IMG/VR virus record: IMGVR_UViG_3300021131_000032
Location: 1-33,354 of that record
From: a virus
Length of the DNA: 33,354 nucleotides
Direction: 5' to 3' (one strand)
Part shown: one piece after another, positions 2,908 to 17,190 of the stretch
Layout of the letters: the number at the start of each line of letters is the position of its first letter
Numbering within the stretch: the first letter of the stretch is position 1
Translations under genes and position numbers: made by a program
Notes under the pieces: model-generated
What the model was told of the DNA's origin: nothing
The model's input: the letters and a program-made list of their open reading frames with translations, nothing else
The model's database searches: none

Positions 2908-3084
2908 ATGAATAACTGTAAACACAAATGGATCATACAAGACGGCAAAATGACATGTACACATTGTAATAAAATAAATAATGATAAATGCAAATACTGT
3001 CATAACGAAGGCTTGTATTTTGATTTTAGAGATGGTGAAGAAGTATCTGTATGCTTTAGTCATTTAGGTGACTATACAACCTGA
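2908..3084 (+). CDS. Small Cys/His-rich zinc-binding-like protein, 58 aa
   Basis: Contains Cys4, His6, Cys17, Cys20 (CTHC), Cys28, Cys31, His32, Cys49 and His52, enough for two zinc knuckles. The ATG at 2908 follows a TATAAT box by 8 bases with no clear ribosome-binding site. The stop lies 17 bases inside the next gene if that gene uses its GTG start. No family recognised. Confidence 0.65.
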   Translation: MNNCKHKWIIQDGKMTCTHCNKINNDKCKYCHNEGLYFDFRDGEEVSVCFSHLGDYTT

Positions 3085-4338: not shown

Positions 4339-4868
4339 GTCAGCCCAAAGTATGCGAAGGCTTTATAAGCCAAGAAAATGCAGCAAAATTAAATAGTTAT
4401 TTGAGATCTAAATCTATAATGAATCCGCATAACTTACTTAATGTTTCACTGACACCCTTGCATCTAGACAAATACCCAGATGGTGCGGAGTTTCATTCCA
4501 TGGTAGAATCAATAATCAAAAGGGTTGGCGATCAATTTGGGATTGATAATATTGATATATCAAGAGCAATGTATCAGGTTCTACAAAAAAATGATAGTTT
4601 GGGATATCACACAGACGCTTATGGCGGGGTAGAGGGTTATACCGAAGAGTATTACTCAGCCTTAGTATATCTAACAGATGATTATGAAGGTGGAGAGATA
4701 TTGTTCTATAATGGACTAACTGAAGATAAAAATGATGCTGTAGCATATAAGCCTGATGCTGGAACATTAATTTATTTTAAGGGAGATAAAGATACTCCAC
4801 ATTCAGTAAACGAGGTAATATCAGGCGAAAGATCAAACATTATATTGTTCTATAGGGAGATAAAATGA
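4335..4868 (+). CDS. 2OG-Fe(II) oxygenase, prolyl-4-hydroxylase-like
   Basis: 177 residues; ATGA overlaps on both sides. Ligands HTD at 92-94 (GYHTDAY), the YEGGEILFYNG strand (117-126), His156 in TPHSVNEV and Arg166 in SGERS. The core is minimal, and the spacing between the GGE strand and the distal histidine is longer than in its neighbours because of an insert (EDKNDAVAY) near 130-138. Adjacent to two similar enzymes and followed by two JmjC/cupin-like ones, it belongs to a coordinately expressed oxygenase set. Confidence 0.9.
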   Translation: MSQPKVCEGFISQENAAKLNSYLRSKSIMNPHNLLNVSLTPLHLDKYPDGAEFHSMVESIIKRVGDQFGIDNIDISRAMYQVLQKNDSLGYHTDAYGGVEGYTEEYYSALVYLTDDYEGGEILFYNGLTEDKNDAVAYKPDAGTLIYFKGDKDTPHSVNEVISGERSNIILFYREIK

Positions 4869-5410
4869 TAGAAAAGTTCTTAAAAGAAGCAAAAGAGTCT
4901 GGCAAAAACTATGCAGTCTTAAAGACTCATAAGTCTACACCTTCATGGGAATATTTTTATACAATATACGACAGAGAACGTGAAGACAATAAGATATCTT
5001 TAGTTGGTCGTACTTATAATGATGTCATTGAAGATTTCAAGCAGCAAGCAATTAAAGCCTTTAACGATGACTATTATGATTTTTATATGTATGAGTCACA
5101 AGGATACAGAAACATAAAGCCAAAGACTCCTGGAACACAATTACACCGTGATCCAAGCGAAATCTTGCATTGGCAGTGCCGTGGTGCTACTGAATGGAAG
5201 CTTGGGGTTGGAAAGCAAACATCAGATGGAGTTGTTAATGGTGAGTCTCATCTTTATGATGCAGAATGGCTTGAAGAGCCAGAAACTATTATCCTAGAAC
5301 CAGGGGACATTCTCTGGATGAATATTGGTGTATGGCATAGTACTGAGAATCTTACAGAAAAAATGTCAATTGTTTTTGAGCCTTTATCAAACTCAAGGAA
5401 AACATTGTGA
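4865..5410 (+). CDS. Cupin/JmjC-like 2OG oxygenase
   Basis: 181 residues. The pattern differs from the P4Hc neighbours: HRD at 94-96 (TQLHRDPSEI), then a strand ending in a Trp (GATEWKLG), then LEPGDILWMNIGVWHS with distal His158. This ordering (HxD, Gly/Trp strand, PGD turn, H) is typical of cupin-type JmjC-like hydroxylases. No GGE strand or SGxR motif is present. It starts in an ATGA overlap and ends in a GTGA overlap with a second protein of the same type. Probable Fe(II)/2OG hydroxylase acting on protein or another polymer; substrate unknown. Confidence 0.8.
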   Translation: MIEKFLKEAKESGKNYAVLKTHKSTPSWEYFYTIYDREREDNKISLVGRTYNDVIEDFKQQAIKAFNDDYYDFYMYESQGYRNIKPKTPGTQLHRDPSEILHWQCRGATEWKLGVGKQTSDGVVNGESHLYDAEWLEEPETIILEPGDILWMNIGVWHSTENLTEKMSIVFEPLSNSRKTL

Positions 5411-5997
5411 TAAAAAGTATTCTTCAAGATTTAAGTAGCACGGGCAAGGCTTTGGCCTTGCCCAATTACTTTAATTTGGACATGGATTGGAACCATGTCA
5501 TTAAAATTTTAGATGATCTTTCAAGAAGCAGTCAGGATAAAGATTTTATATCTAACATGAAAAAGGAGGGATTTCAAGGTATAGGCTCCCTTTTCCATAA
5601 GGATATATCCTACTTTCAATCTCTATTTCATATAAAATCTAGTGACCCAAAAATAAAGTACATCATTGATACAATATATAAAGATTTAGATATAGATGAG
5701 CATTTAATCCCAAATACTGCACAATCTTTTGTCAATGTATTGGGAGGAGAGTATACTACGTCAAAGCATAGGGATAACTGGGGGGTGGCATACATGCAAA
5801 TTATTGGAAGCACAGATTGGTCAATATATGATCAATTAGATAATAAAAAATTAATCCAAAAAACTACTATTAACGAGGGTGACCTAATAGTATTAAACAA
5901 GGGCGTGATACACCAAGTACATGCAAAAACCCCCAGGTTCGCAATAAGCTTATCCTTAAATGATGGTAAAGGTTATTCTAACGAATATATAGATTAA
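5407..5997 (+). CDS. Cupin/JmjC-like 2OG oxygenase, second copy
   Basis: 196 residues from GTG at 5407. Same architecture as the preceding gene: HRD at 121-123 (SKHRDNWGV), a strand ending in TDWSIYDQ, INEGDLIVLNKGVIHQVH with distal His169, then a strand (RFAISLSL) corresponding to the final beta strand of the cupin. The two share motif order but little else by eye, so divergence is old. It is the last plus-strand gene of the operon; 3' of it lies non-coding sequence converging on an oppositely oriented oxygenase gene. Confidence 0.8.
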   Translation: MIKSILQDLSSTGKALALPNYFNLDMDWNHVIKILDDLSRSSQDKDFISNMKKEGFQGIGSLFHKDISYFQSLFHIKSSDPKIKYIIDTIYKDLDIDEHLIPNTAQSFVNVLGGEYTTSKHRDNWGVAYMQIIGSTDWSIYDQLDNKKLIQKTTINEGDLIVLNKGVIHQVHAKTPRFAISLSLNDGKGYSNEYID

Positions 5998-6193: not shown

Positions 6194-6823
6194 CTATTGT
6201 CTACCAAACTCTTGCCACATCTTACCAATATCACTCTCAAGCCATTCCTTAGAGTCCATGATTTGATTCCATGTCTTTTCATTATTATCTTTTTCATTCA
6301 TTTGGTTATTTGGTCCAGGCTGATTCTTGTCATATACAACAAAAGTAATAAATCTCTTATTATCACCCTTTACTCCAACTGCACCATGTGCAATAGATGC
6401 TGAATGCAATACCATATCGCCTTTTCCTGGCTTAACCCAAGTGTTATTTATAGGGTAGAATAACTCTCCACCATCCATATCTGCTAGGTAGATAACGCCT
6501 CCCCAAACCTTCTTGAATGGTGTAATATCATATGCTTGCTCATCTCTATGGATTGGGAACCATAAGTTTGCTGGGTTATACCAATGCAAGAAATAACGGA
6601 TATCATATTGTGTATCCTTAAAGAAATCATTAACCTTATCAATCAATCTTTGATCAACATCACCATGTAATAATTCAATTGTATCTTCTCTTTCTTCTTT
6701 ATCTGGACTACTCGACTTCTTTACTGATTCCTCAAATAAAATATCAGTCAGTTCGTCCCCAACGAAGTTACGCCAAACATAAGCTTCTTCATTTACCATC
6801 TCAAAATTACTAAAATCAATCAT
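6194..6823 (-). CDS. 2OG-Fe(II) oxygenase, prolyl-4-hydroxylase-like
   Basis: 209 residues. Ligands HRD at 92-94 (FPIHRDEQAY), the DMDGGELFYP strand (115-124), distal His146 in SIAHGAVGV and an Arg in the DNKRF segment (Arg157) where the 2OG-binding residue is expected. A Lys/Asn/Glu-rich linker and helical tail (WNQIMDSKEWLESDIG) occupy the last 45 residues. It is read opposite to the other oxygenases and has its own promoter with AAGGGGGT ahead of the ATG. The separate promoter suggests different timing from the plus-strand set. Confidence 0.9.
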   Translation of the reverse strand: MIDFSNFEMVNEEAYVWRNFVGDELTDILFEESVKKSSSPDKEEREDTIELLHGDVDQRLIDKVNDFFKDTQYDIRYFLHWYNPANLWFPIHRDEQAYDITPFKKVWGGVIYLADMDGGELFYPINNTWVKPGKGDMVLHSASIAHGAVGVKGDNKRFITFVVYDKNQPGPNNQMNEKDNNEKTWNQIMDSKEWLESDIGKMWQEFGRQ

Positions 6824-8429: not shown

Positions 8430-9129
8430 TTGCATTCTCCTTATGTGTTGGGCAGTTATTGTTTTCTTCGTTACCGAATCCACATGCAGAGCATACCTCA
8501 TTTTCGCAATCTTCGCAATACTCTAATGTGTCTGTTGAATCACAGTCTCTACACTTGGAATCATATTGACCATGGCTAATAACTACACCACGTAAGATTT
8601 CCATTTCCCCACCCCAGCCTGTTTCTTCTTCATATGACAAAGTAAACAAAAGGTCGGGATACTGAGATGATAATGTAATTAATGCTTGTTCTGGAATACC
8701 CCATGCAGTATTAAAGTTATAATATACAGAAGCAGTCCATTCATCCTCAGTTTCTTCCATATATGTATCTGAATCTAATGAATCATTAGGTACAGCAACA
8801 TCCCATTTAACACCCCAGTTACGGATATTCCAGTTATACCATGAATTATCAGTCTTAGATTTTTCTTGCAAGTCCGCCCACCAAGTAGGGTCAGATATAT
8901 CTTTATCTGAGCGAACAGGTTGTTGCTTATATGCTTCAAGGTCGGTGGGAGCAATGATGTTCCTAAAACTAAAGATAGGATTAGAATACTTAGTCTGCTT
9001 AACACCATAAGACAAATCACCTGTGGCTTCAATATAATCAACAAACGGTGTATTCATCTGTGCTTTTAGTTTATTTACAGAATCATGTGGACCTTGTGCA
9101 GTTAATCCATTATAGACCCAGTTTGGCAT
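8422..9129 (-). CDS. Api92-like ferredoxin-fold protein with C-terminal zinc ribbon
   Basis: 235 residues beginning MPNWVYNGLTAQGP, the signature opening of the Api92-like/DUF1281 phage and plasmid family, in which a ferredoxin-like domain starts with PNW-x-x-N. The central part is Trp-rich (WNIRNWGVKWD), also typical, with GWGGEMEI near 180. The last 45 residues add a cysteine cluster, CRDC, CEDC and CSAC, forming a zinc ribbon. The family's biochemical role is unknown. The ATG overlaps the previous stop as TAATG. It anchors a five-gene overlapping unit reading down to 7468. Confidence 0.85.
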   Translation of the reverse strand: MPNWVYNGLTAQGPHDSVNKLKAQMNTPFVDYIEATGDLSYGVKQTKYSNPIFSFRNIIAPTDLEAYKQQPVRSDKDISDPTWWADLQEKSKTDNSWYNWNIRNWGVKWDVAVPNDSLDSDTYMEETEDEWTASVYYNFNTAWGIPEQALITLSSQYPDLLFTLSYEEETGWGGEMEILRGVVISHGQYDSKCRDCDSTDTLEYCEDCENEVCSACGFGNEENNNCPTHKENANV

Positions 9130-9290
9130 TAGAGTACCTCGGCATTAACTAAATCTAGTTGAGCAGAAGAAATAAACCAATCGCCAATCTCGGTATTGAG
9201 AGCAATCTGTTCTGCTAATTCTTGACTATCTGCCTCGACCTCGATATTGAGTTCGAGAGTGTAATCGGCATAAACACGATACTTTGTCAT
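9129..9290 (-). CDS. Small hypothetical protein, 53 aa
   Basis: Starts 28 bases after the -10 box of the promoter at 9319-9342, behind GAAAGGA, and ends in a TAATG overlap with the Api92-like gene. The pattern is beta strand (KYRVYADYTLELNIEVEAD) then helix (SQELAEQIAL), common in short conserved phage proteins. It is the first gene of the 7468-9290 unit. Confidence 0.7.
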   Translation of the reverse strand: MTKYRVYADYTLELNIEVEADSQELAEQIALNTEIGDWFISSAQLDLVNAEVL

Positions 9291-9318: not shown

Positions 9319-9348
9319 ATTGTAGCATTAGGCACTGACATTGGTCAA
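9319..9348 (-). promoter_or_regulatory. AATGTCAGTG-type promoter (copy 1)
   Basis: Minus strand: TTGACC (9343-9348), AATGTCAGTG (9333-9342), 8 bases, TACAAT (9319-9324), with TG one base before the -10. The same element with identical spacing occurs ten times to 17190. It drives the 7468-9290 unit and overlaps the 3' end of the gene ending at 9328. Confidence 0.8.
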
Positions 9349-9591
9349 CACTTGGTCGGGAGTGTTGGAGATATTATCTTCCTCAAACTCTCTATGATAT
9401 TGTGCTAGAGTATACACAGTAAAGTTACATCCTTGGTTATATGCCCATTTACAAGCATCTATGAGACTTTCTGTCTCATATAGTGGATATGGTGTTTCGT
9501 AATCATTATCTAAATCATTATATATCTCAAATGAATTTATCCCACCAGGTGAGACTGAATAATCTATTTCATATATTCTTAATGTTTCCAT
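9328..9591 (-). CDS. Hypothetical protein, 87 aa
   Basis: Starts behind an AGGATG-like site at 9591. Acidic, Tyr-rich, with a mixed strand/helix pattern (RIYEIDYSV, then DACKWAYNQGCNFTVY). Its last codons run through the downstream AATGTCAGTG promoter. No family recognised; the single-gene unit is preceded by the 9604-9740 regulatory stretch. Confidence 0.7.
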   Translation of the reverse strand: METLRIYEIDYSVSPGGINSFEIYNDLDNDYETPYPLYETESLIDACKWAYNQGCNFTVYTLAQYHREFEEDNISNTPDQVLTNVSA

Positions 9592-9603
9592 GGGAACATC
9601 CTA

Positions 9604-9740
9604 TCATATCGTAAACGTTCCCGTCAAGCCATCGTAAAGGTGATTTTCATCACTTCGTAAATGTGTTTAATATCACATGTCCGATATGTCCGATTTTTTT
9701 TGAAACAGCTGCATCCCACTTTGTCAAGTGGACACGCTGT
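9604..9740. promoter_or_regulatory. Intergenic regulatory module with palindromes and TCGGACAT pair
   Basis: Contains GGTGATTTTCATCACT (9639-9654) and TGTGT-TTAATA-TCACA (9662-9677), both CRP-like; two minus-strand TCGGACAT octamers at 9677-9684 and 9686-9693, 9 bases apart; TCGTAAA motifs; and a CCACTT-GACA-AAGTGG hairpin near 9721-9736. It shares pieces with modules at 12.0, 13.3, 15.1, 16.5 and 17.2 kb but lacks DnaA boxes. Confidence 0.6.
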
Positions 9741-9746
9741 GATTAT

Positions 9747-9902
9747 TTAATCAAAATAACCTTCGGCCCATAGGCCCTGGAGAAAGTCATTGGTCCCAGC
9801 CAAATTTTCCATAAGTTTTGTTTGACCTTCGGGCACATAGTGCATTGCTAAATATGTAGCATCAATCATTTCATCGAGATCATCTTTGGTATAGCCTAGC
9901 AT
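9747..9902 (-). CDS. Small acidic hypothetical protein, 51 aa
   Basis: ATG in a TAATG overlap with the upstream gene. Begins MLGYTKDDLDEMIDATYLAM, a helical acidic stretch seen in many small phage proteins, and ends with an aromatic LWAEGYFD tail. Last gene of the 9747-10460 unit. Confidence 0.7.
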   Translation of the reverse strand: MLGYTKDDLDEMIDATYLAMHYVPEGQTKLMENLAGTNDFLQGLWAEGYFD

Positions 9903-10051
9903 TACGCCACCTCATATTCATGTAAGTAGTTTAATACATTATGGATTATGCAATCACAATCCCCGCCCATGTTATCCATGAAGTCAACGTGTCCAAAGTT
10001 GTCCTCATAGATAGTGTTAATTACTCTATCAAACATTTCTGTTGTTGTCAT
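9902..10051 (-). CDS. Small hypothetical protein, 49 aa
   Basis: Overlaps upstream by ATGA and downstream by TAATG. Acidic, with a short GGDCDC motif around residues 29-34 that could bind metal but is too small for a confident call. Mostly helical otherwise. Confidence 0.65.
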   Translation of the reverse strand: MTTTEMFDRVINTIYEDNFGHVDFMDNMGGDCDCIIHNVLNYLHEYEVA

Positions 10052-10389
10052 ACTAGAACCTCCACGAATTGCTCTAGTGGAAATGTCATCTGTCCAACTG
10101 AAACTGTCCTATTTACTAAGTCAATTACTTTCCGTTCATATTCTTCCTCGTGTGTAATCTCTGCACCAATGTAGATTCCATAGCCTGTTGCTGAATCACG
10201 CCCGTGCACAGTTAGTTTGTCAATGATGATGCGAACTGCATATGACTCATCGTTGATGCGTGGCATAGCAGCCTTGATTGCTTCTTGCATACGCCAAACA
10301 GATTCTTCGCCGTCCCAATGTGCGTAGACATTTATGTTTTGCTCAGGGTTGTCGGTTGTGATAATTGTGTAGTTAGTTCTTGCTCCCAT
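10048..10389 (-). CDS. Hypothetical protein, 113 aa
   Basis: Starts in a TAATG overlap with a 23-residue membrane peptide. Mixed alpha/beta: strands YTIITTD, INVYAHW and VRIIIDKL, a helix RMQEAIKAAM, and a C-terminal strand. The opening NYTIITTDNPEQNINVYAHWDG resembles recurrent small phage proteins of unknown function. No catalytic motif is visible. Confidence 0.75.
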   Translation of the reverse strand: MGARTNYTIITTDNPEQNINVYAHWDGEESVWRMQEAIKAAMPRINDESYAVRIIIDKLTVHGRDSATGYGIYIGAEITHEEEYERKVIDLVNRTVSVGQMTFPLEQFVEVLV

Positions 10390-10460
10390 TAAAATATTTG
10401 TCCAATCACGAATATTGCGGTTATTACGAATAAGCAGAATAGATAGAAGTTGATTATCAT
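10389..10460 (-). CDS. Single-pass membrane peptide, 23 aa
   Basis: MIINFYLFCLFVITAIFVI and a few more residues: almost entirely hydrophobic, one transmembrane helix. Its stop forms TAATG with the next gene. A TAGGAT -10-like hexamer with TG spacing lies about ten bases upstream of the ATG. It may be a true micropeptide or a leader for coupling. Confidence 0.5.
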   Translation of the reverse strand: MIINFYLFCLFVITAIFVIGQIF

Positions 10461-10481
10461 TGGGGTATCCTATCAGAAAGT

Positions 10482-10503
10482 GGGGGGATAATCAAATCCC
10501 CCC
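10482..10503. terminator. Perfect GC hairpin after the 10519 gene
   Basis: GGGGGGAT (10482-10489), a 6-base loop, ATCCCCCC (10496-10503): eight perfect base pairs. It follows the stop at 10519 on the minus strand by 16 bases. No strong T-run follows, so it may be a weak terminator or an RNA 3' stabiliser. Confidence 0.6.
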
Positions 10504-10518
10504 AGCCTGTTTAGTTAC

Positions 10519-10935
10519 TTAGAGATAACGAGCGATTGACTTCATTGTCGTGGCATTGACAGTTTCTTCATCTGTCATCTTTAGGATAGACAAGGCATTT
10601 GTGATTTCCTCACAGATTTCCTTGTATGTATGTTGGTTCATCTGCTCAAAATCACGCTTTGGTTCAGCAGGGAAATTAGCACCCTGTGTATCAACATCAA
10701 AGTCAATGTTAAGAGAGTTATTCCATTGGCGATAGTTAGTGCGGATATTTGTTGCCTTCTTGATATTAGCAATAGCATAATCAGCAAGAGCCTTGCGATA
10801 CTTCTCATACTGCTTTTGATACTTTGCTTCGTTTGCTTCCTGATTAGCATAATCAGATTTGATTTGTGCCAACTTTGCTTGTAGTGCGTTGATTACCTTC
10901 GGTGTTGCTACTTTTACGGAGATTGCTCTAGCCAT
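10519..10935 (-). CDS. Conserved actinophage-like coiled-coil protein, 138 aa
   Basis: Opens MARAISVKVATPKVINALQ and continues with a charged helical stretch (residues about 18-60), a tryptophan-containing centre and a helical C-terminus. The opening resembles a protein present in many actinobacteriophages, function unknown. The ATG sits behind the shared CAACAAAGAAAAGGA leader and a consensus promoter with a palindrome in its spacer, so it is a single-gene, well-expressed, possibly repressed unit. Confidence 0.8.
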   Translation of the reverse strand: MARAISVKVATPKVINALQAKLAQIKSDYANQEANEAKYQKQYEKYRKALADYAIANIKKATNIRTNYRQWNNSLNIDFDVDTQGANFPAEPKRDFEQMNQHTYKEICEEITNALSILKMTDEETVNATTMKSIARYL

Positions 10936-10965
10936 TTTTGTTTCCTTTTCTTTGTTGGGTTGGTA

Positions 10966-10995
10966 AGTATAACATAGCGGAGGGTGCTATGTCAA
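10966..10995 (-). promoter_or_regulatory. Sigma-70-type promoter with palindromic operator in the spacer
   Basis: Minus strand TTGACA (10990-10995), 18 bases, TATACT (10966-10971). Between and touching the hexamers lies a 7-base inverted repeat: ACATAGC (10972-10978) and GCTATGT (10986-10992), centred in the spacer as expected for a repressor site. Drives the 10935 gene. Confidence 0.7.
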
Positions 10996-10997
10996 TT

Positions 10998-11264
10998 TTA
11001 TTTGCGGGGTGTCGGGATTTTTCTATTGGTACGAGCATACTGAACCTCATACTTAGGAACATCACCAGATACAGGCTGAATTGTAGATACATCTAAGACC
11101 TTGCCCTGAAAGGCTACACAAAGTTTAGTTAATCTAACTTCATCAGTACAGGTCAGTTCTACTTGGAGGTTATCCAATACGCTGTATTCCACGCCATACT
11201 GCATCGCCTTGCCCAGACCATATCCCATCTGGGCATTGTTGGGTACTTGTAGTTTAACTATCAT
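10998..11264 (-). CDS. Hypothetical protein, 88 aa
   Basis: Begins MIVKLQVPNNAQMGYGLG directly after the 11267 stop, so cotranscribed. Strand-rich with a basic tail. Ends just upstream of the promoter for the 10935 gene. No known family recognised. Confidence 0.7.
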   Translation of the reverse strand: MIVKLQVPNNAQMGYGLGKAMQYGVEYSVLDNLQVELTCTDEVRLTKLCVAFQGKVLDVSTIQPVSGDVPKYEVQYARTNRKIPTPRK

Positions 11265-11266
11265 TA

Positions 11267-11704
11267 TTAAGCCTCTCTTACATCTTCGACAGAATAATCA
11301 GACACATCAAAGTCCCCGCCCCAAGAAGAAACTTGGAGATTATCATTGGCGATTGACTCGATATCATAGTCCTCGGTTAATGGAACTGTGATAGTAGCAG
11401 AGAAAGACATTGTGCCGATAATTTCGATTTCCTTAGTTAGTTGGATATTAAAAATATCAGCAACTTCTCGAATTACCTCTAAGGTATCCTCGTCAGCATC
11501 TTGGGCATATGTAACCAAAACATTTTCTAACTTAAATACTTTGTTATTCATTTCGATATTGCGTTCATTATTTTTGCGGGAGTTTTCTAGTAGCCACTCA
11601 ATATCAGTAACCTTTTCGGTCTTGTATTCAGTTTCACCATTGGTGATTTTCTTGTAAGTAACTAATAGGTGTGGGTCATAAATCTCTGCGATTGTTGTTT
11701 CCAT
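11267..11704 (-). CDS. Nested short form of the preceding gene, 145 aa
   Basis: The ATG at 11704 lies 34 bases past the -10 (11739-11744) of promoter copy 2. Its leader, CCCAAAAGAAAGAAGAACAAACT, matches the leaders of other promoter units (CCCAACAAAGAAAAGGA). This argues that an independent product starts here, with the long form arising by readthrough from promoter copy 3. The protein begins METTIAEIYDP and is acidic, with a helix around VLEVIREVADIF-like sequence and a strand-rich C-terminus. Function unknown. Confidence 0.6.
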   Translation of the reverse strand: METTIAEIYDPHLLVTYKKITNGETEYKTEKVTDIEWLLENSRKNNERNIEMNNKVFKLENVLVTYAQDADEDTLEVIREVADIFNIQLTKEIEIIGTMSFSATITVPLTEDYDIESIANDNLQVSSWGGDFDVSDYSVEDVREA

Positions 11705-11884
11705 AGTTTGTTCTTCTTTCTTTTGGGTTATAGGAGTAATTGTAGCATCTACCACTGACATTAGAGTCATCTGTATACAGCACTTAGGACACATTTCAGC
11801 GTGAGGAAATCCATCAGATTGTAGAGTCATTTCGACATTGCCATCACATTGGGTACAGATATAATCCCATTTAGTCCAGTTCAT
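11267..11884 (-). CDS. Zinc-ribbon protein fused to a hypothetical domain (long form)
   Basis: 205 residues from the ATG at 11884, behind AAAGGTGA; another ATG at 11899 has no clear site. Residues 1-45 form a zinc ribbon: CTQC then CPKC about 20 residues on. Residues 45-60 run across an internal copy of the AATGTCAGTG promoter (reading MSVVDATIT). After that comes an acidic domain starting METTIAEIYDPHLLV that ends in an acidic C-terminal strand pattern. An internal ATG with its own promoter probably makes the second domain alone. The ribbon half resembles the free-standing ribbon gene at 14131-14247. Confidence 0.7.
   Translation of the reverse strand: MNWTKWDYICTQCDGNVEMTLQSDGFPHAEMCPKCCIQMTLMSVVDATITPITQKKEEQTMETTIAEIYDPHLLVTYKKITNGETEYKTEKVTDIEWLLENSRKNNERNIEMNNKVFKLENVLVTYAQDADEDTLEVIREVADIFNIQLTKEIEIIGTMSFSATITVPLTEDYDIESIANDNLQVSSWGGDFDVSDYSVEDVREA
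11739..11762 (-). promoter_or_regulatory. AATGTCAGTG-type promoter (copy 2, intragenic)
   Basis: AATGTCAGTG (11753-11762), 8 bases, TACAAT (11739-11744), TG one base before the -10. It lies inside the long-form reading frame at 11267-11884. Confidence 0.75.
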
Positions 11885-11908
11885 CAGTTCACCTTTCATT
11901 AAGACACT

Positions 11909-11932
11909 ATTGTATCATTAGCCACTGACATT
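11909..11932 (-). promoter_or_regulatory. AATGTCAGTG-type promoter (copy 3)
   Basis: AATGTCAGTG (11923-11932), 8 bases, TACAAT (11909-11914), TG one base before the -10. Serves the zinc-ribbon long form starting at 11884. Confidence 0.8.
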
Positions 11933-11938
11933 TTCCAG

Positions 11939-12047
11939 GCGACACGCCGTAAGATCGTAACTGTGTTTAAGCTCACATTAGTTATACACAACCTGTGGAT
12001 AAGTCTTTGAAAATTTTTGCAGCTTTGTCAACTCGACACGCCGTGAT
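11939..12047. promoter_or_regulatory. DnaA/CRP intergenic module 1
   Basis: TGTGT-TTAAGC-TCACA (11962-11977); 4 bases later a pair of DnaA boxes in inverted orientation, TTATACACA (11982-11990) and TGTGGATAA (11994-12002), separated by 3 bases; then CTTTGAAAATTTTT and a TTTGTCAACTCGACACGCCGTG stretch ending about 12045. The second box is a perfect reverse complement of TTATCCACA. Confidence 0.65.
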
Positions 12048-12050
12048 CAA

Positions 12051-12080
12051 GAAAAAAAAGAGAGGGGGCTTTCGCCCCCT
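12051..12080 (-). terminator. Strong rho-independent terminator, minus strand
   Basis: Arms AGGGGGC (12063-12069) and GCCCCCT (12074-12080) with a 4-base loop; on the minus strand the hairpin is followed by CTCTTTTTTTTC. Eight bases past the stop of the DUF932 gene. Confidence 0.92.
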
Positions 12081-12087
12081 GCAATTT

Positions 12088-13140
12088 TTATTTCGCTAGA
12101 GCAAGAACCTGCTTAACGATTTTATTTTTTTCTGCTGTAACTACGGCATCGAATCCGCTTGCACCTGCCATGAGTGAATCTCCACCCTTGCGAGCGGTGC
12201 GGTGATAATCAAGGCGTTCGGTGAGAGTATTAACAACACCCCACGCTGTATTCTTGATATTCGCATTGTGTGGCGCATTGTATAGGTCACCGATAGTGAT
12301 AATTTTATTCTCCCACTTTTTTACTGCGCCCTTTACATCGGCTTCAGGCTTAGGGTACATCTTGTTAATGATTTCGTTAAACTTAGAATTATTAACTTCA
12401 ACAGCGAACAATTCTTGTGCTTGCTTCTCGAATTCATCAGCGTATGCGAATGTTAATCCTAGAGCCTCACGAGCAGCAGCAATTTTTCCATCTACTGTCT
12501 GAGTGTGACGAATCTTGAATGATTGCTTAGCCCGCTTCATTGCAAGGTTTAGCGTATTCTGACACATAACACGAACAGGGGTAATTGCAGATTGAACAGC
12601 AACAGAACCATCGTGTGATGTCCATACGATTAGATAGAGTTTAGTTTCATCGTTAGCACCATTAGGGTCAAGCACCATAGTGCGGGGAATTGACATTGAA
12701 CCATAAACGATTCGACCACTCTTGAGAGAGCCAGCAGATTCCCATACGACACCCTCGTTGCCATCATGAATGTTATCGGCGAATGCGAATAAATCTTCAT
12801 TCTGTACTGTCTTATAACGAGCACCGACAACAGATAGAACATCTTTCTGTCCTGCTACATTTGGGTTATCACGAGTAACGAGAAAATTCTCGCTAACAGT
12901 TGTATAGTTATCTGCAAGTAAATCGCTAACAGATTCTAGTTGAACATTCCAATTAGAGAGTTTAGCACCATCAAGCATTTGCTTAGTGGTAACAGCCTCA
13001 TCTTGTGAGAATACTTTATTAGCAAAAGAATGCCATGCAGGATTGGTGCGAAGATTGACAGCGAGTGATGCAGAACCTTCTGCAATTTCACCAGCGTGTG
13101 CTGTATTGCCGACGGGGGATTGCTTGATTGCTTGATTCAT
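12088..13140 (-). CDS. DUF932 family phage/plasmid-like protein
   Basis: 350 residues from ATG 13140, behind GAAAGAGG; an upstream in-frame GTG at 13194 would start inside the promoter. Characteristic DUF932 blocks: Trp near the N-terminus (PAWHSF), GARYKTVQNEDLF (LGvVGxxYxpVQN-like), the EGVVWESAGSLKSGRIVYG block, SHDGSVAV, and PVRVMCQNTLNLA. This family is widespread in phages and plasmids; a DNA-related role is suggested in the literature but unproven. The C-terminal 130 residues are helical. It is the largest gene of the minus-strand early region and has a single-gene unit with promoter and strong terminator, suggesting high expression. Confidence 0.9.
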   Translation of the reverse strand: MNQAIKQSPVGNTAHAGEIAEGSASLAVNLRTNPAWHSFANKVFSQDEAVTTKQMLDGAKLSNWNVQLESVSDLLADNYTTVSENFLVTRDNPNVAGQKDVLSVVGARYKTVQNEDLFAFADNIHDGNEGVVWESAGSLKSGRIVYGSMSIPRTMVLDPNGANDETKLYLIVWTSHDGSVAVQSAITPVRVMCQNTLNLAMKRAKQSFKIRHTQTVDGKIAAAREALGLTFAYADEFEKQAQELFAVEVNNSKFNEIINKMYPKPEADVKGAVKKWENKIITIGDLYNAPHNANIKNTAWGVVNTLTERLDYHRTARKGGDSLMAGASGFDAVVTAEKNKIVKQVLALAK

Positions 13141-13171
13141 GATTGAACCTCTTTCTTGTTTGATTAGTTTA

Positions 13172-13195
13172 ATTATAACAGAACCCACTGACACT
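13172..13195 (-). promoter_or_regulatory. AATGTCAGTG-type promoter (copy 4)
   Basis: AGTGTCAGTG (13186-13195; one change from the consensus), 8 bases, TATAAT (13172-13177), TG one base before the -10. Drives DUF932. Confidence 0.82.
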
Positions 13196-13236
13196 TGTCC
13201 ATTCTTAATGCCAGACTATAGATACATTTGTCCGTA

Positions 13237-13333
13237 ATGTCCGATTTCATAAATGTGATTAATCTCACATTGTTTGTCCACAGCCTGTGGATAACTCTTT
13301 AAAAATTTTTCGGGGTTTGTCAAGTGCGACACG
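13237..13333. promoter_or_regulatory. DnaA/CRP intergenic module 2
   Basis: Minus-strand TCGGACAT (13237-13244); perfect TGTGA-TTAATC-TCACA (13254-13269); 4 bases later the DnaA-box pair TTGTCCACA (13274-13282) and TGTGGATAA (13286-13294), inverted and separated by 3 bases; then CTTTAAAAATTTTT and a TTTGTCAAGTGCGACACG stretch. Same order and spacing as module 1. Confidence 0.68.
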
Positions 13334-13420
13334 TTAAAATAAATCTATAATAAACCCGATGAAATAAGCGATGGCAAACACTCCTCCATAAACAAACATG
13401 TAAGCCATCACTATATCCAT
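13334..13420 (-). CDS. Small membrane peptide, 28 aa
   Basis: ATG at 13420 follows GGGGGA at good distance; an earlier ATG at 13432 would give 32 residues. Sequence MDIVMAYMFVYGGVFAIAY and a FIGFIIDLF tail: one hydrophobic helix. The stop falls in the edge of module 2. Confidence 0.5.
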   Translation of the reverse strand: MDIVMAYMFVYGGVFAIAYFIGFIIDLF

Positions 13421-13440
13421 TGCGTCCCCCATTTATAAAT

Positions 13441-13656
13441 TTAATTTAATACGGACCAATAAGCTAATCCAAGCTCATCAGAACAATACCGTGCAACGTC
13501 ACTGTGTGCAGTTTCATTGTAGAAGTATTTTGTGCGCTGTCCCTTTACTTGAACCTTGAAGAAGATATCGTCGTTAGCATCTTGATATATTTTGCATGCA
13601 TCATCGGCGAAGACTGAGTGCCATGATGCAGATCCTACAGGTGGGTGTTTAGCCAC
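13441..13656 (-). CDS. Hypothetical protein, 71 aa
   Basis: GTG start overlapping the upstream TAG stop. Strand-rich (IFFKVQVKGQRTKYFYNET) with a helical C-terminus ending LAYWSVLN, suggesting a small alpha+beta protein. No family recognised. Confidence 0.7.
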   Translation of the reverse strand: MAKHPPVGSASWHSVFADDACKIYQDANDDIFFKVQVKGQRTKYFYNETAHSDVARYCSDELGLAYWSVLN

Positions 13657-13865
13657 TATGCCACCACTTTAAGGATGGCATAGGTACCGTTAGCATTCAA
13701 TTCATCAATACGTGGTTGAAGTGTAGGGGCCACCAATTCTTTTAGCATGCCTTCAAGCAATTGGACCTGCTCTTCATGAGACAATCCAAGCAGGCGTTGG
13801 CCTACGGGATGAGTCTCGTCAACTTCGGTGATAAACTTTAGGTTGTGTTCAATTGATACTGTCAT
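13656..13865 (-). CDS. Hypothetical protein, 69 aa
   Basis: ATG behind the CCCAACAAAGAAAAGGA leader of promoter copy 5. Opens with a strand (TVSIEHNLKFITEV), then helices containing LLGLSHEEQVQLLEGML and a C-terminal strand. No motif recognised. First gene of a three-gene unit with 13441 and 13334. Confidence 0.75.
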   Translation of the reverse strand: MTVSIEHNLKFITEVDETHPVGQRLLGLSHEEQVQLLEGMLKELVAPTLQPRIDELNANGTYAILKVVA

Positions 13866-13896
13866 TTTAATTTCCTTTTCTTTGTTGGGTTAGATT

Positions 13897-13920
13897 ATTA
13901 TAGCAGTGGGCACTGACATT
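13897..13920 (-). promoter_or_regulatory. AATGTCAGTG-type promoter (copy 5)
   Basis: AATGTCAGTG (13911-13920), 8 bases, TATAAT (13897-13902), TG one base before the -10. The motif overlaps the stop of the upstream gene at 13919. Confidence 0.82.
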
Positions 13921-14131
13921 ACTTTTCGACTACTCTGCGACCTTCACGGTAAAATACTTTTGTGTAGCACTTGCCAGTTGGCGTGTACATATTTACAGTT
14001 GAGTATTCATTTGCCAAACCCCAATCAACAAACTTCGCAAACTCTTTGTGTGCTTGTAGTTCATCTGAGTATTGTGCGACGAATACGGGGACGGGACTTT
14101 CATCATAGGTACAGGTTATCTTGTAATTCAT
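13919..14131 (-). CDS. Hypothetical protein, 70 aa
   Basis: ATG at 14131 (TTGGAG ribosome-binding site 8 bases upstream, TAATG overlap with the preceding zinc-ribbon gene); a TTG at 14143 is a less likely start. Contains strand YKITCTYDESPVPVFVAQY and a helix (DELQAHKEFAKFVDW), ending in a basic tail. A small alpha+beta fold; function unknown. Confidence 0.7.
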   Translation of the reverse strand: MNYKITCTYDESPVPVFVAQYSDELQAHKEFAKFVDWGLANEYSTVNMYTPTGKCYTKVFYREGRRVVEK

Positions 14132-14247
14132 TAGTTGCTCCAATCAAGCGTTAAGCACTTACATTTTGTTATAGTTATTGTATCACCTTGCACTGACATT
14201 GTGGCAAGGGTATCACATTCATCACATATGAAAATTTTATCAGACAT
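14131..14247 (-). CDS. Very small zinc-ribbon protein, 38 aa
   Basis: CDEC near residue 8 and CKC near 29 give a CxxC...CxC zinc knuckle. Residues 17-25 are encoded across promoter copy 6 (MSVQGDTIT). It overlaps the upstream stop by 8 bases and the downstream start as TAATG, so translation is likely. Its first half resembles the N-terminal ribbon of the 11267-11884 protein. Confidence 0.6.
   Translation of the reverse strand: MSDKIFICDECDTLATMSVQGDTITITKCKCLTLDWSN
14177..14200 (-). promoter_or_regulatory. AATGTCAGTG-type promoter (copy 6, intragenic)
   Basis: AATGTCAGTG (14191-14200), 8 bases, TACAAT (14177-14182), TG one base before the -10. Embedded in the zinc-ribbon gene, so it would add transcription of 13919-14131. 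Confidence 0.75.
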
Positions 14248-14434
14248 AGTAAGCCATTTCTGTTAGAATATGAGCATAGCCATCTTTATCGGATTTGAGA
14301 GATAACTCGCAAGGTTCACATTTCCATTCATACCGAATAGACTTTGAGGCAATAGCCCAATGTGTCATTTTTTCTGAGCATACGGGACAGTAGGCAGAAA
14401 TCTCCTGCCCTAGCCCACCAATTTTAATAGTCAT
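14240..14434 (-). CDS. Zinc-ribbon protein, 64 aa
   Basis: CPVC (16-19) and CEPC (39-42), spaced like a classic four-cysteine zinc ribbon. Starts in an ATGA overlap with the upstream gene and ends 8 bases inside the next. A basic middle (KSIRYEWK) could bind nucleic acid. Small, no catalytic motif. Confidence 0.75.
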   Translation of the reverse strand: MTIKIGGLGQEISAYCPVCSEKMTHWAIASKSIRYEWKCEPCELSLKSDKDGYAHILTEMAYYV

Positions 14435-14649
14435 AGTAATTCACTATCCAATCCGACATATACAGTTGTCCAGAAATCAGGCTTAGGAAATCCTTCGCCG
14501 TTCCAGTGTGGGCGAACCTTACACGCATAAGCGAGGTAACCCTCTGGTGTTGAGTGGTGCATATCCTTGCGGAAATCTGCGTATTGGATAAGTCCATTTC
14601 CTTTTGAGGACTTTACATATTTGCCTTCTAAGGCTTCTGAGATTAGCAT
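14431..14649 (-). CDS. Hypothetical protein, 72 aa
   Basis: ATG in a TAATG overlap with the upstream small gene that spans promoter copy 7. Contains a Trp/Pro-rich centre (RPHWNGEGFPKPDFWTT) and a YVGLDSEL end. Function unknown; coupled on both sides. Confidence 0.7.
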   Translation of the reverse strand: MLISEALEGKYVKSSKGNGLIQYADFRKDMHHSTPEGYLAYACKVRPHWNGEGFPKPDFWTTVYVGLDSELL

Positions 14650-14756
14650 TATTTGCTACCTTCTTTCTTTGTTGAGTTAATTATAGCATTGACCACTGAC
14701 ATCGTGGACTCTTTGCGTGTGGCTTCTATATAAGCCTTGTATTCTTCTAGGTTCAT
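14649..14756 (-). CDS. Small helical protein crossing a promoter, 35 aa
   Basis: Opens MNLEEYKAYIEATRKES, then crosses promoter copy 7 (MSVVNAII), ending with KKEGSK. Overlaps the upstream stop and the downstream start as TAATG. Both boundaries are exact, but no other support exists, so it could be a translated coupling leader rather than a functional protein. Confidence 0.5.
   Translation of the reverse strand: MNLEEYKAYIEATRKESTMSVVNAIINSTKKEGSK
14680..14703 (-). promoter_or_regulatory. AATGTCAGTG-type promoter (copy 7, intragenic)
   Basis: GATGTCAGTG (14694-14703), 8 bases, TATAAT (14680-14685), TG one base before the -10. Leads to the CAACAAAGAAAGAAGG leader of the gene starting at 14649. 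Confidence 0.78.
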
Positions 14757-14983
14757 TATCTGACCTCCTCTAGTGTTAGGCATAGTGGGTTGCACTCGCA
14801 ATAATCAAAATCAAAATCACCATCAGGGCTAACCCAGCCAGTAATTCCTTGACCATAGCAGTTATCGCAGGACTTGAAGATACACTCCCAGCAAGTGGAA
14901 TCGGAAGTGTAGGGAGCGTCATATACTGAAATATCAGATAAACGCTTATTGCAATCTTTGCAATATGTGGCAATAGTAGACAT
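14756..14983 (-). CDS. Multi-cysteine zinc protein (DnaJ-type cysteine motif), 75 aa
   Basis: Nine cysteines: CKDC (8-11), CWEC (31-34), CDNCYGQG (39-46) and CECNPLC (62-68). The CDNCYGQG piece matches the CxxCxGxG repeat of the DnaJ zinc domain, and the others would complete two zinc sites. ATG lies directly after a short open frame ending at TAA and behind GAAAGGGG. No J-domain is present, so it is a stand-alone zinc module, perhaps an adaptor to a host factor. Confidence 0.75.
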   Translation of the reverse strand: MSTIATYCKDCNKRLSDISVYDAPYTSDSTCWECIFKSCDNCYGQGITGWVSPDGDFDFDYCECNPLCLTLEEVR

Positions 14984-15014
14984 TTAATGCCCCTTTCTTT
15001 TCTTGATAGTTGGA

Positions 15015-15043
15015 AGTATACCAGACCCCACTGACATTATCAA
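15015..15043 (-). promoter_or_regulatory. AATGTCAGTG-type promoter (copy 8) with a -35
   Basis: TTGATA (15038-15043), 17-base spacer, TATACT (15015-15020). AATGTCAGTG occupies 15029-15038, 8 bases before the -10. Drives the multi-cysteine gene and the following units. Confidence 0.8.
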
Positions 15044-15084
15044 CTCGACACGCCGTAATGCTCATATTTTGAGACGCTTAAAGG

Positions 15085-15127
15085 TATGATTAAAATCACA
15101 TTTGCTTGTGGATAAACCTGTGGATAA
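15085..15127. promoter_or_regulatory. DnaA/CRP intergenic module 3
   Basis: TATGA-TTAAAA-TCACA (15085-15100, one half imperfect), then two DnaA boxes in direct orientation, both TGTGGATAA (15107-15115 and 15119-15127), separated by 3 bases, then CTCTTTGAAAAATT. Modules 1 and 2 have the same 3-base gap but inverted box pairs. It lies upstream of promoter copy 8. Confidence 0.68.
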
Positions 15128-15130
15128 CTC

Positions 15131-15162
15131 TTTGAAAAATTAGTTGATTATTCAACTAATTT
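15131..15162 (-). terminator. Terminator of the 15148-15437 genes, minus strand
   Basis: Perfect 11-bp hairpin arms AAATTAGTTGA (15137-15147) and TCAACTAATTT (15152-15162) with a 4-base loop; on the minus strand it is followed by TTTTTC. The loop includes the stop codon of the 15148 gene. Confidence 0.85.
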
Positions 15163-15261
15163 ATTTTTATGTTTTTGTTTTCGATCATAGCGTTTTTTAT
15201 TTCGCATAGGCGTAGCAGCATTACTACGCCTAAGCTCTTGAATTCGTTTTACCTTTTGCAT
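15148..15261 (-). CDS. Small highly basic protein, 37 aa
   Basis: TGATG overlap with the upstream gene. Eleven or more Lys/Arg residues: MQKVKRIQELRRSN, then KKRYDRKQKHKNK. Likely nucleic-acid binding by charge; no family. Ends inside its own terminator hairpin. Confidence 0.6.
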   Translation of the reverse strand: MQKVKRIQELRRSNAATPMRNKKRYDRKQKHKNKLVE

Positions 15262-15437
15262 CAGTTTAGATTCTTGAAACATTCTTCCCAAAACCTGTCT
15301 GAGTCGAATCGCTCGTTATCTGCTGCAAACATTTCGATGAAATCATTTACTAAATCTTCTAGCACTTGTGTTTTAATTTCTGAGCCATACGAGTTAATAA
15401 TTTCTGCTGTTGCAACATAATCTTTTCGTGTCATCAT
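15261..15437 (-). CDS. Hypothetical protein, paralogue of the 16532 gene
   Basis: 58 residues starting MMTRKDYVATAEII and ending in NERFDSDRFWEECF. The first block and the (F)D-x-DRFWxxCF ending match the gene at 16532-16726 (MMTRKDYVSIAKVL... FDRDRFWDACF), so the two are paralogues. The same motif arrangement recurs in small actinophage proteins. Coupled to a basic 37-residue protein. Confidence 0.75.
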   Translation of the reverse strand: MMTRKDYVATAEIINSYGSEIKTQVLEDLVNDFIEMFAADNERFDSDRFWEECFKNLN

Positions 15438-15519
15438 TTAAGTTCTTTGTCCTTTTCGTGTATGTAATAGTGTGAGCAGTTTAGCGACTTGCTCAGGTCG
15501 TTTAGGTTATAGCCTAAAG

Positions 15520-15690
15520 TTACTTAGCGGAGAAAGTCGTCCAGCGGTCTTTGCCTTCTACTTCCAACTTAACACGGGTACGCTTTGCGGTAACGGGAAC
15601 AATTTCCTTGATAGTACCTGTAACCTTGCTACGCTGTGTAGTGAATAGGTCGCCGATTTGGTAAGTTACGCCTGTTGTTTCGTCTGTCAT
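15520..15690 (-). CDS. Small beta-rich hypothetical protein, 56 aa
   Basis: Strand-rich: YQIGDLFTTQRSKVTGTIKE, TRVKLEVEGKDRWTTF, with the alternating pattern of a small SH3/OB-like barrel. The ATG is behind AAAAAGGA and the shared CAACAAAGAAA leader from promoter copy 9. A hairpin (TTTAGG-N6-CCTAAA) follows the stop. Nucleic-acid or protein binding is plausible but not shown. Confidence 0.72.
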   Translation of the reverse strand: MTDETTGVTYQIGDLFTTQRSKVTGTIKEIVPVTAKRTRVKLEVEGKDRWTTFSAK

Positions 15691-15732
15691 TATTTTTTAT
15701 CCTTTTTCTTTGTTGTTTGATTTACTTACAGT

Positions 15733-15756
15733 AGTCTACCATAGACCACTGACATT
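15733..15756 (-). promoter_or_regulatory. AATGTCAGTG-type promoter (copy 9)
   Basis: AATGTCAGTG (15747-15756), 8 bases, TAGACT (15733-15738; weaker -10), TG one base before. Drives the 15690 gene; overlaps the end of the upstream secreted-peptide gene. Confidence 0.72.
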
Positions 15757-15757
15757 G

Positions 15758-15952
15758 TTAGGGCTGTGTTTGAGTACGGCAGCCAATGTACGCACACTTT
15801 AGGTGTGTTGAGCGGTGATAAGTGTATCCGTAGTGATAAGATTTTGCGAGGCTAATTGTGTGATGAACACGGGGAGCGTGATAAACACGAGCATTAGCAA
15901 CGGCGGGAATTAGTGTAAGCAATAAGCCTAGTACAATTATCTTAGTTTTCAT
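15758..15952 (-). CDS. Secreted His/Tyr-rich small protein, 64 aa
   Basis: Residues 1-20 are a typical Sec signal peptide (MKTKIIVLGLLLTLIPAVANA) with a probable cleavage site after ANA. The mature 43 residues are basic and rich in His and Tyr (RVYHAPRVHH..., SYHYGYTYH) with one Cys pair (CAYIGC) that could form a disulfide or bind metal. A phage encoding its own secreted short peptide is uncommon; roles could include superinfection exclusion or envelope stress. Not a known family. Confidence 0.7.
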   Translation of the reverse strand: MKTKIIVLGLLLTLIPAVANARVYHAPRVHHTISLAKSYHYGYTYHRSTHLKCAYIGCRTQTQP

Positions 15953-16058
15953 CTTGCCCCCAAGTCATTACGTCTTTTGCCATAGCATACATTAGCATAC
16001 ATAGGGGCGGGAAGGCAAGTAGCATTAAGCCACGAACGATATATGTGAGAATAATCAT
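15942..16058 (-). CDS. Small membrane protein, 38 aa
   Basis: MIILTYIVRGLMLLAFPPL with further hydrophobic residues: one transmembrane helix, short acidic tail. The stop lies 11 bases inside the secreted-peptide gene; coupling supports it. No family recognised. Confidence 0.6.
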   Translation of the reverse strand: MIILTYIVRGLMLLAFPPLCMLMYAMAKDVMTWGQDEN

Positions 16059-16059
16059 A

Positions 16060-16254
16060 TTAGATACACTCCACACAATAACACTTAGGAGCATTTCCAC
16101 CTAAGAAGATTTTGATAGCCAGCATACGCTGACGAGTATCTAATCCATAAGTAGACTTTAATCCTCCGTTATTAAAATCGTGAACCATACGATTTTCGAG
16201 GATAGCAGAGATACCAAGTACCTTGCCGAGATTTACGTTTTCTAGTGTAGTCAT
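16060..16254 (-). CDS. Hypothetical protein, 64 aa
   Basis: ATG at 16254 is behind AAAGGTGG; a GTG at 16263 is possible. Begins MTTLENVNLGKVLG. The leader and first codons (AAAGAAAGGTGGTCA...ATGACTACACTA) are shared with the gene at 16875-17111. Ends with KCYCVECI, a small Cys cluster that may bind metal. Has its own promoter with a palindrome. Confidence 0.72.
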   Translation of the reverse strand: MTTLENVNLGKVLGISAILENRMVHDFNNGGLKSTYGLDTRQRMLAIKIFLGGNAPKCYCVECI

Positions 16255-16287
16255 TTTGACCACCTTTCTTTATTGTTTAATACGAGT

Positions 16288-16316
16288 ATTCTAGCAGATA
16301 ATTGCTAGAAAATCAA
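16288..16316 (-). promoter_or_regulatory. Sigma-70-type promoter with 8-bp palindrome in the spacer
   Basis: TTGATT (16311-16316), 17 bases, TAGAAT (16288-16293). The spacer contains TTCTAGCA-N6-TGCTAGAA at 16289-16310, perfect 8-base arms, a probable operator. Drives 16060-16254 and the 15758-16058 genes. Confidence 0.75.
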
Positions 16317-16373
16317 GGCGACACGCCGTGTGTTGCCAATCTTTTTTTTCCTTATTTAATTTTCGATACTGGA

Positions 16374-16402
16374 AGTATAACACATAAAATCGCTACTGTC
16401 GA
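16374..16402 (-). promoter_or_regulatory. Possible promoter without an obvious gene
   Basis: TCGACA (16397-16402), 17 bases, TATACT (16374-16379). No good start codon follows before the next promoter, so it may make a short RNA or boost the 16254 unit. Confidence 0.4.
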
Positions 16403-16442
16403 GTATACTGGGCAGTAGTATCAATATGTGGAGCGTGGCATA

Positions 16443-16482
16443 TGTGAACTACACCACAGTACAATTCGGACATATCGGACAT
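16443..16482. promoter_or_regulatory. CRP-like half-perfect palindrome and TCGGACAT pair
   Basis: TGTGA-ACTACA-CCACA (16443-16458; one base off the consensus), followed by TCGGACAT at 16466-16473 and 16475-16482, a 9-base period as in the 9677/9686 pair. Lies between the terminator of the 16532 gene and the 16.3 kb promoters. Confidence 0.55.
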
Positions 16483-16486
16483 CTTT

Positions 16487-16519
16487 AAAAAAATTGCGAG
16501 CGTGTCAAGATCAACACGC
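16487..16519 (-). terminator. Terminator of the 16532-17111 unit, minus strand
   Basis: Arms GCGTGT (16500-16505) and ACACGC (16514-16519) with an 8-base loop; on the minus strand a seven-T run follows (A-run 16487-16493). It lies 13 bases past the stop of the 16532 gene. Confidence 0.75.
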
Positions 16520-16531
16520 AAGCTTTTTATT

Positions 16532-16726
16532 TTATTCGCTGAAACACGCATCCCAGAATCGGTCACGGTCAAAGTTAGGATTATCTTTTATTAGCATAGT
16601 AATAAACGGACTAACTAACGACACATCAACCTCATCAACGAATGATGGTCGGGATTCGGAATTATATTCCTTTAGGTAATCATTTAATACTTTAGCGATA
16701 GACACATAGTCTTTACGAGTCATCAT
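16532..16726 (-). CDS. Hypothetical protein, paralogue of the 15261 gene
   Basis: 64 residues opening MMTRKDYVSIAKVLNDY and ending with FDRDRFWDACF, matching the 15261-15437 gene at both ends. The middle is divergent and longer. Starts immediately after the upstream TAA stop. The family recurs in actinophages as small helical proteins of unknown function. Confidence 0.78.
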   Translation of the reverse strand: MMTRKDYVSIAKVLNDYLKEYNSESRPSFVDEVDVSLVSPFITMLIKDNPNFDRDRFWDACFSE

Positions 16727-16873
16727 TTATAGCACCTCATCTACATCAAAATTATCAACGGGAACGAATACATCATCTGTATCGTGTTCTGCTAGTTCAT
16801 CTAGCATAGACTGATAACCATCAGCCAACTCAGACCAGCGGTCTGTCTTTACATTATCGAAAGAGTAGGACAT
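16727..16873 (-). CDS. Small acidic hypothetical protein, 48 aa
   Basis: ATG two bases before the 16875 stop; TAA directly precedes the downstream ATG. Sequence MSYSFDNVKTDRWSELADG and further acidic helix with DTDD and DVDEV runs (many Asp/Glu). Length fits exactly between coupled neighbours. Function unknown. Confidence 0.68.
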   Translation of the reverse strand: MSYSFDNVKTDRWSELADGYQSMLDELAEHDTDDVFVPVDNFDVDEVL

Positions 16874-16874
16874 A

Positions 16875-17111
16875 TTACTTGCCACCCTTCATCATTAGAG
16901 AGACATAACGCTTAGCGATAATAACCGCTTGAGGATTAAGTGTACCCCAACGAGTACCATTATCCACGCTAGGATACTTAGCGTTGATACGCACAGCAAT
17001 ATCAACAGGCAAGACATAACGAGGGCGGGGAGCATAACCGCCAGCCTCTAACCCAAAGTCCTTAGCAATATCACTACGGATTTCATTATAGTATTCATTT
17101 AGTGTAGTCAT
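16875..17111 (-). CDS. Hypothetical protein, 78 aa
   Basis: ATG behind AAAGGTGG, in the shared leader also found at 16254. Begins MTTLNEYYNEIRSDIAKDFG, helical and charged, with a centre containing APRPRYVLPVDIAVRI. No motif recognised. First gene of a three-gene unit ending at 16532. Confidence 0.72.
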   Translation of the reverse strand: MTTLNEYYNEIRSDIAKDFGLEAGGYAPRPRYVLPVDIAVRINAKYPSVDNGTRWGTLNPQAVIIAKRYVSLMMKGGK

Positions 17112-17166
17112 TTGATGACCACCTTTCTTTTTATCTGCTAATCACCTTGATTAACTTGATACGAGT

Positions 17167-17190
17167 ATCCTATCAGACACCACTGACATT
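17167..17190 (-). promoter_or_regulatory. AATGTCAGTG-type promoter (copy 10)
   Basis: AATGTCAGTG (17181-17190), 8 bases, TAGGAT (17167-17172), TG one base before the -10, TTGATA ahead. The last copy seen on this strand. Confidence 0.75.

Follow-up and report, generated by a model that had tools for sequence, protein, structure and literature searches.

Lake actinophages appear to start a block of small genes from host-type PafBC promoters

Ten sites with the architecture of a DNA-damage promoter

Which protein reads a short box that recurs, always in the same phase to a -10 hexamer, across one gene block of a virus? The question is raised by IMG/VR virus record IMGVR_UViG_3300021131_000032, analyzed here whole as a single window (33,354 bases, linear, 37% GC). 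An earlier note had claimed ten sites of the form box-N8-(-10) in this DNA, giving for each the low end of the -10 hexamer as its coordinate. All ten were recovered at those places, all on the minus strand, with none elsewhere in the window. Eight boxes are exact copies of AATGTCAGTG and two carry one mismatch (AGTGTCAGTG at 13186-13195 and GATGTCAGTG at 14694-14703). In each of the ten, exactly 8 bases separate the box from a TAnnnT hexamer, TG stands one base before that hexamer, and a short leader with a Shine-Dalgarno sequence and a start codon follows.

The pattern TGTCRGTG-N8-TAnnnT has exactly ten matches in the window, which are the ten sites, compared with a mean of 0.02 and a maximum of 1 in shuffled sequences. 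The 10-mer alone, searched with up to two mismatches, was found 45 times against 39 expected, which is not significant. The significance therefore resides in the architecture and not in the 10-mer by itself.

This architecture is that of the RecA-independent DNA-damage promoter of actinobacteria (RecA-NDp), whose consensus is tTGTCRgtg - 8 nt - TannnT (PMC5656591) and which extends beyond mycobacteria (PMC8223512; Streptomyces, PMC5087735). In mycobacteria its regulator PafBC works by "sigma adaptation": PafB binds the -26 motif and PafC binds domain 4 of sigma-A, replacing the -35 contact, and activation occurs when the WYL domains bind single-stranded DNA (PMC11804915). The consensus is matched by all ten sites and by nothing else in the window. 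The 10-mer spans -30 to -21, with TGTCRGTG at -28 to -21, so that its centre lies where the -26 element is expected. We consider it highly probable that the ten sites are RecA-NDp-type promoters, switched on or boosted through host PafBC; it is from the identity of the motif that we infer PafBC action on the phage promoters. The suggestion of a previously undescribed promoter class has to be given up, since the motif corresponds letter for letter to the known actinobacterial one.

The phage sites share with RecA-NDp (recA P1 of Mycobacterium and its counterparts in other actinobacteria) the TGTCRGTG element, the 8-base spacing, TAnnnT, a dispensable -35 and use of the housekeeping sigma factor, and the presumed host order has the same motif before both recA and carD. 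They differ in lying on phage DNA, in forming arrays of 8-22, in their extended, near-consensus -10 (in the main clade), in first letters that are usually AA, and in having no SOS box. Among the papers listed in literature searches, the 10-mer itself occurs only in unrelated ones, and none joins PafBC with phage promoters or describes a block of phage genes run by such an array. The novelty thus appears to lie in the use of host PafBC promoters, in arrays, for a block of phage genes, the promoter type itself being known.

A plausible course of events can be proposed. PafBC, a host heterodimer activated by single-stranded DNA, would sit between sigma-A domain 4 and the DNA, with PafB reading the -26 box and PafC holding domain 4, so that the housekeeping RNA polymerase could start without a normal -35. 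The phage would have taken copies of this host promoter, set them before about ten genes of a single block, and made them stronger through a -10 that is extended and close to consensus. Single-stranded DNA from infection, phage replication or DNA breakage would then set off the host damage response and turn the block on or boost it. In this way lake viruses infecting actinobacteria appear to start most of the roughly one dozen small genes of the block from host-type damage promoters via PafBC, and we infer an early timing of the block, triggered by single-stranded DNA.

Conservation of the box and its exchange with the -35 element

To follow the box beyond the window, we collected relatives through protein homology to the DUF932 and reductase genes, independently of the box. 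In these unbiased relatives (2.33 Mb), a TAnnnT hexamer stands at exactly +8 for 204 of 207 exact boxes (130 of 132 after removal of redundancy), where 1.8% would have it by chance; the reversed box was counted 6 times over this sequence. Five relatives of 105-115 kb carry 8-9 sites each, confined to one block of 6-13 kb, running in one direction, with almost none elsewhere. Among their boxes with 9 or 10 of 10 letters, 34 lie at spacing 8 and 0-2 at any other spacing. The box is thus conserved upstream of homologous genes in close relatives, the place where the earlier note had suggested that its absence would tell against the idea.

The architecture reaches further. A more distant clade has up to 22 sites per contig at the same spacing, with the TG of the extended -10 frequently gone, and structural proteins as remote from the first clade as those of the Streptomyces phage LilMartin. 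In the second clade (G315, G317, G319, G320), records hold 10-22 sites each, and SOS-like boxes, one or two, are found in some contigs. Separately, two such promoters 400 bp apart occur in phage G318, which is 63 kb long, has 52% GC and carries different structural genes (28638-29057, minus strand), probably an independent use.

Across 243 non-redundant promoters, no -35 position carries as much as 0.2 bit; the informative positions are the box, G/C at -20, TG at -15/-14, the -10 and A at +1. About a quarter of the promoters have a good TTGACA, found only at spacers of 17 and 18, which identifies them as housekeeping-sigma promoters. Where a site in the window has a good -35, that element adjoins the box or overlaps it a little, at a spacer of 17 or 18. 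The earlier description of the box as lying within the spacer in such cases is refined to this extent.

The clearest contrast comes from the gene for a protein of 138 amino acids (aa), at 10519-10935 on the minus strand. In the window this 138-aa gene has a box-less promoter with a perfect TTGACA and an extended -10, whereas in many relatives its promoter has the box and a poor -35. The mean match to TTGACA is 2.27/6 for boxed and 5.67/6 for box-less orthologous promoters (n = 11 and 6, non-redundant). Over all gene families the contrast is weaker (p = 0.001, rank test), the box-less group there including misassigned -10s. Since box and -35 replace each other at orthologous promoters, the box probably acts positively. 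The direction of the swap agrees with an activator site, not with an operator.

These data bear on the possibility that the box is an operator from which a repressor, bound in the spacer, shuts the block down as in the stoperators of cluster A mycobacteriophages. Such a role would suit a box that covers part of the polymerase site, the quarter of promoters that retain a good -35, and the lack of -35 compensation across sites with 0-3 box mismatches. It is nevertheless extremely unlikely: an orthologous promoter without the box gains TTGACA, as expected if activity requires the box, the distance from box to -10 keeps a constant phase, and in hosts the homologous motif is an activator site. Of the earlier proposal that a factor "co-activates or represses" the genes, the first half is therefore favored and the second disfavored.

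Alternatively, the box could be nothing more than a favorable spacer for host RNA polymerase in a strong constitutive promoter that needs no activator, and the extended near-consensus -10 and clear start-site A would agree with this. We regard it as very unlikely. Streptomyces phages of the BE cluster use -35 promoters in place of the boxed ones, and genomes of the presumed host order have only about two such sites each, among them sites at DNA-damage genes. In one presumed host genome, box-like spacers are not enriched at that phase, although the data are limited; the promoter logo drawn from 400 kb of one such genome comprises 10 promoters only.

Some features of the spacers stand apart from these comparisons. 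The box-less promoters of the 138-aa gene (window 10936-11010, minus strand, and five related loci) combine TTGACA with a spacer palindrome that is spelled differently from phage to phage, as in ACACGGCA-TAC-TGCCGTGT and CATAGC-ACCCTCC-GCTATG. Several boxed promoters of this gene likewise lie within an inverted repeat. A hairpin around the box was considered as a general feature and rejected, as it does not extend across sites.

PafBC in the presumed hosts and candidate phage readers

The presumed hosts are Nanopelagicales-like (acI-type) actinobacteria. A tandem WYL pair (pafB-pafC) is present in 6 of the 7 genomes of this order tested. In one examined genome the pair matches the PafBC, PafB and PafC structures (6SJ9, 7P5X) at 1e-30 to 1e-34, and next to it comes an open reading frame (ORF), the third of the row, that reads as TatC. 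No WYL domain, the mark of a PafBC-type gene, was found in the 14 phage records searched for it.

The promoter is there as well. Over 61 genomes of the order, 132 matches to the motif compare with 25 to the reversed control, a fivefold difference. It lies upstream of recA, with an SOS box directly after it, and upstream of carD; a single exact box before carD in the single-cell genome SCGC AAA278-O22 was the first clue to RecA-NDp. Phage and host sites alike favor a G at -20 and an A at -24. An initial impression that the box is restricted to phages, from exact-string scans of hosts that gave scattered single hits, was discarded: an exact string proved too restrictive, and hosts are clearly enriched in the relaxed pattern. 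As a separate observation, several genomes of the order have a conserved promoter of the PafBC type ahead of carD.

The earlier note had assigned the box to a phage or host factor tied to the -10. A regulatory box is supported, and the presumed hosts have the same promoter at recA and carD. A phage-encoded activator, either the WhiB-like protein or an unknown early protein acting in the fashion of MotA, is an improbable reader by comparison. A WhiB-like gene occurs in 15 of 16 box-phage records and in other box contigs, and the block does hold small conserved proteins of unknown function. On the other side, the same promoter with the same spacing before host recA and carD implies that a host reader exists, LilMartin has WhiB and lacks the box, the phages lack sigma-70 region 2, and none of the other DNA-binding candidates tracks the box across clades.

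Other candidates were set aside. A phage gene tracking the box across clades was sought, with no convincing DNA-binding candidate; a promoter for a phage sigma factor was ruled out, as no Sigma70_r2 domain occurs in 16 phage records; and a WhiA-type GACAC site does not match the motif.

Middle promoters of phage T4 offer a mechanistic parallel. There the activator of the MotA/AsiA system makes contact with sigma domain 4, and the -35 gives way to a box at about -30 to -21, alongside an extended -10. The MotA box has a TGCTT core about 12 bp from the -10, whereas the phage box TGTCAGTG lies at exactly 8 bp, and the reader proposed here is a host protein. No MotA-like gene turned up among the scanned phage proteins, although no search with a MotA model was made. 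The comparison with MotA drawn in the earlier note thus holds for the mechanism, an activator replacing the contact between sigma and the -35, and not for the system, from which box sequence and spacing differ.

Phage regulatory sites in or over promoters are also known from the lambda Q binding element and the cluster A stoperators, which differ from the present box in sequence; here activation with an exchangeable -35 is proposed. Phage genes under host SOS control through LexA, such as tum of coliphage 186, are likewise tied to host DNA-damage sensing. LexA is a repressor, whereas the phage sites would use the activator branch, and LexA boxes are almost absent near them.

Several observations weigh against control by PafBC. 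The phage -10s (TATAAT, TACAAT) are nearer to consensus than those of the hosts (TACCTT) and frequently have TG, so that basal activity without PafBC is likely. About a quarter of the phage promoters retain a good -35. LexA/SOS boxes lie near only 4 of 804 phage sites, and the SOS branch is thus unused. It is not obvious why an early block should wait for single-stranded DNA, and the box might mainly give strength. The presumed host was chosen from low GC, the relationship to BE phages and WhiB.

Judging from the literature, the phage WhiB may be expected to bind sigma-A domain 4 and could counteract PafBC there. A broader proposal, to which we give even chances, is that in widespread large freshwater actinophages the whole block is under PafBC, with more PafBC promoters in 6-13 kb than a typical presumed-host genome has; single-stranded DNA would be the cue for host takeover, and the WhiB-like protein a possible competitor for sigma-A domain 4 that ends the programme.

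If control by PafBC is correct, a lineage of phages that are relatives of Streptomyces viruses, and whose hosts are probably the most common bacteria of lakes, draws on the activator branch of the DNA-damage response in actinobacteria and not on SOS. This would readily explain the conserved block and predicts its induction by infection through single-stranded DNA. It would also provide natural, strong, damage-inducible promoters, testable in Mycobacterium smegmatis with and without pafBC.

The gene block and its phage affiliation

The window is part of the genome of a phage related to the Streptomyces BE cluster (Stanwilliamsviridae), whose left end it matches in gene order and proteins. In both, small minus-strand genes that include DUF932 (51% identity) form a block, after which a glycosyltransferase and a class II ribonucleotide reductase (66%) lie on the plus strand. 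The DUF932 gene (12088-13140, minus strand, 350 aa), a marker of the block, has its homologue at the left end of BE phages. Near-complete relatives and the BE phage LilMartin have terminase, portal, capsid and replication genes in common. Terminal repeats some 11 kb long are reported for BE1 phages (PMC5764925). The initial minus-strand genes of LilMartin, DUF932 included, are present again at the right end of its record. The block may be called early solely by homology with BE phages.

Within the window, the PafBC-type promoters can be assigned to genes as follows, all on the minus strand. The promoter at 9319-9342 (box 9333-9342, -10 TACAAT at 9319-9324) would drive the ORF at 9129-9290 (53 aa) and the genes behind it. 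Two candidates serve the ORF at 11267-11884: that at 11909-11932 (box 11923-11932, TACAAT) would drive the ORF itself, and that at 11739-11762 (box 11753-11762, TACAAT) lies inside it, before an internal ATG near 11704. The DUF932 gene would be driven from 13172-13195, where the box AGTGTCAGTG (13186-13195) precedes TATAAT and adjoins a -35 of TGGACA. Next come 13897-13920 (box 13911-13920, TATAAT), predicted to drive the ORF at 13656-13865, and 14177-14200 (box 14191-14200, TACAAT), within the ORF at 14131-14247 and predicted to drive that at 13919-14131. The promoter at 14680-14703 (box GATGTCAGTG, TATAAT) lies within the ORF at 14649-14756 and would drive 14431-14649. At 15015-15038 (box 15029-15038) the -10 is TATACT and the -35 TTGATA, ahead of the ORF at 14756-14983. 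The last two are 15733-15756 (box 15747-15756, TAGACT), for the ORF at 15520-15690, and 17167-17190 (box 17181-17190, TAGGAT, -35 TTGATA), for that at 16875-17111.

Three of the ten boxes are not intergenic; they lie inside short ORFs, placed in the end of the upstream ORF. These boxes (11753-11762, 14191-14200 and 14694-14703) read in-frame as ATG TCA GTG (Met-Ser-Val), an overlap of promoter and coding sequence. The motifs CGACACGCC(GT) and TGTCCG/CGGACA recur in intergenic DNA upstream of promoters (window ~11940, 13330, 15045 and 16320, and many related loci) and possibly form a second regulatory element.

Among the other genes, a run at 1417-5997 and 6194-6823 resembles repeated 2OG-Fe(II) oxygenases, with PHROG matches for two. 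The 57-aa protein encoded at 15520-15690 looks by eye similar to an SH3/KOW-like fold and frequently occurs in two copies in relatives; it is present in box phages and in phage records G315 and G321, and not in LilMartin.

In the BE phages of Streptomyces, a TGTC at the equivalent place seemed conserved by eye and was rejected, as there is no conservation. In their first 11 kb, LilMartin, Coruscant and Yaboi each have a repeated box of their own (GGCCGGACA, GGCGCCCGGCGCCA and CCGCCCCGGC, respectively), placed some tens of bases upstream of early promoters that have an ordinary -35.

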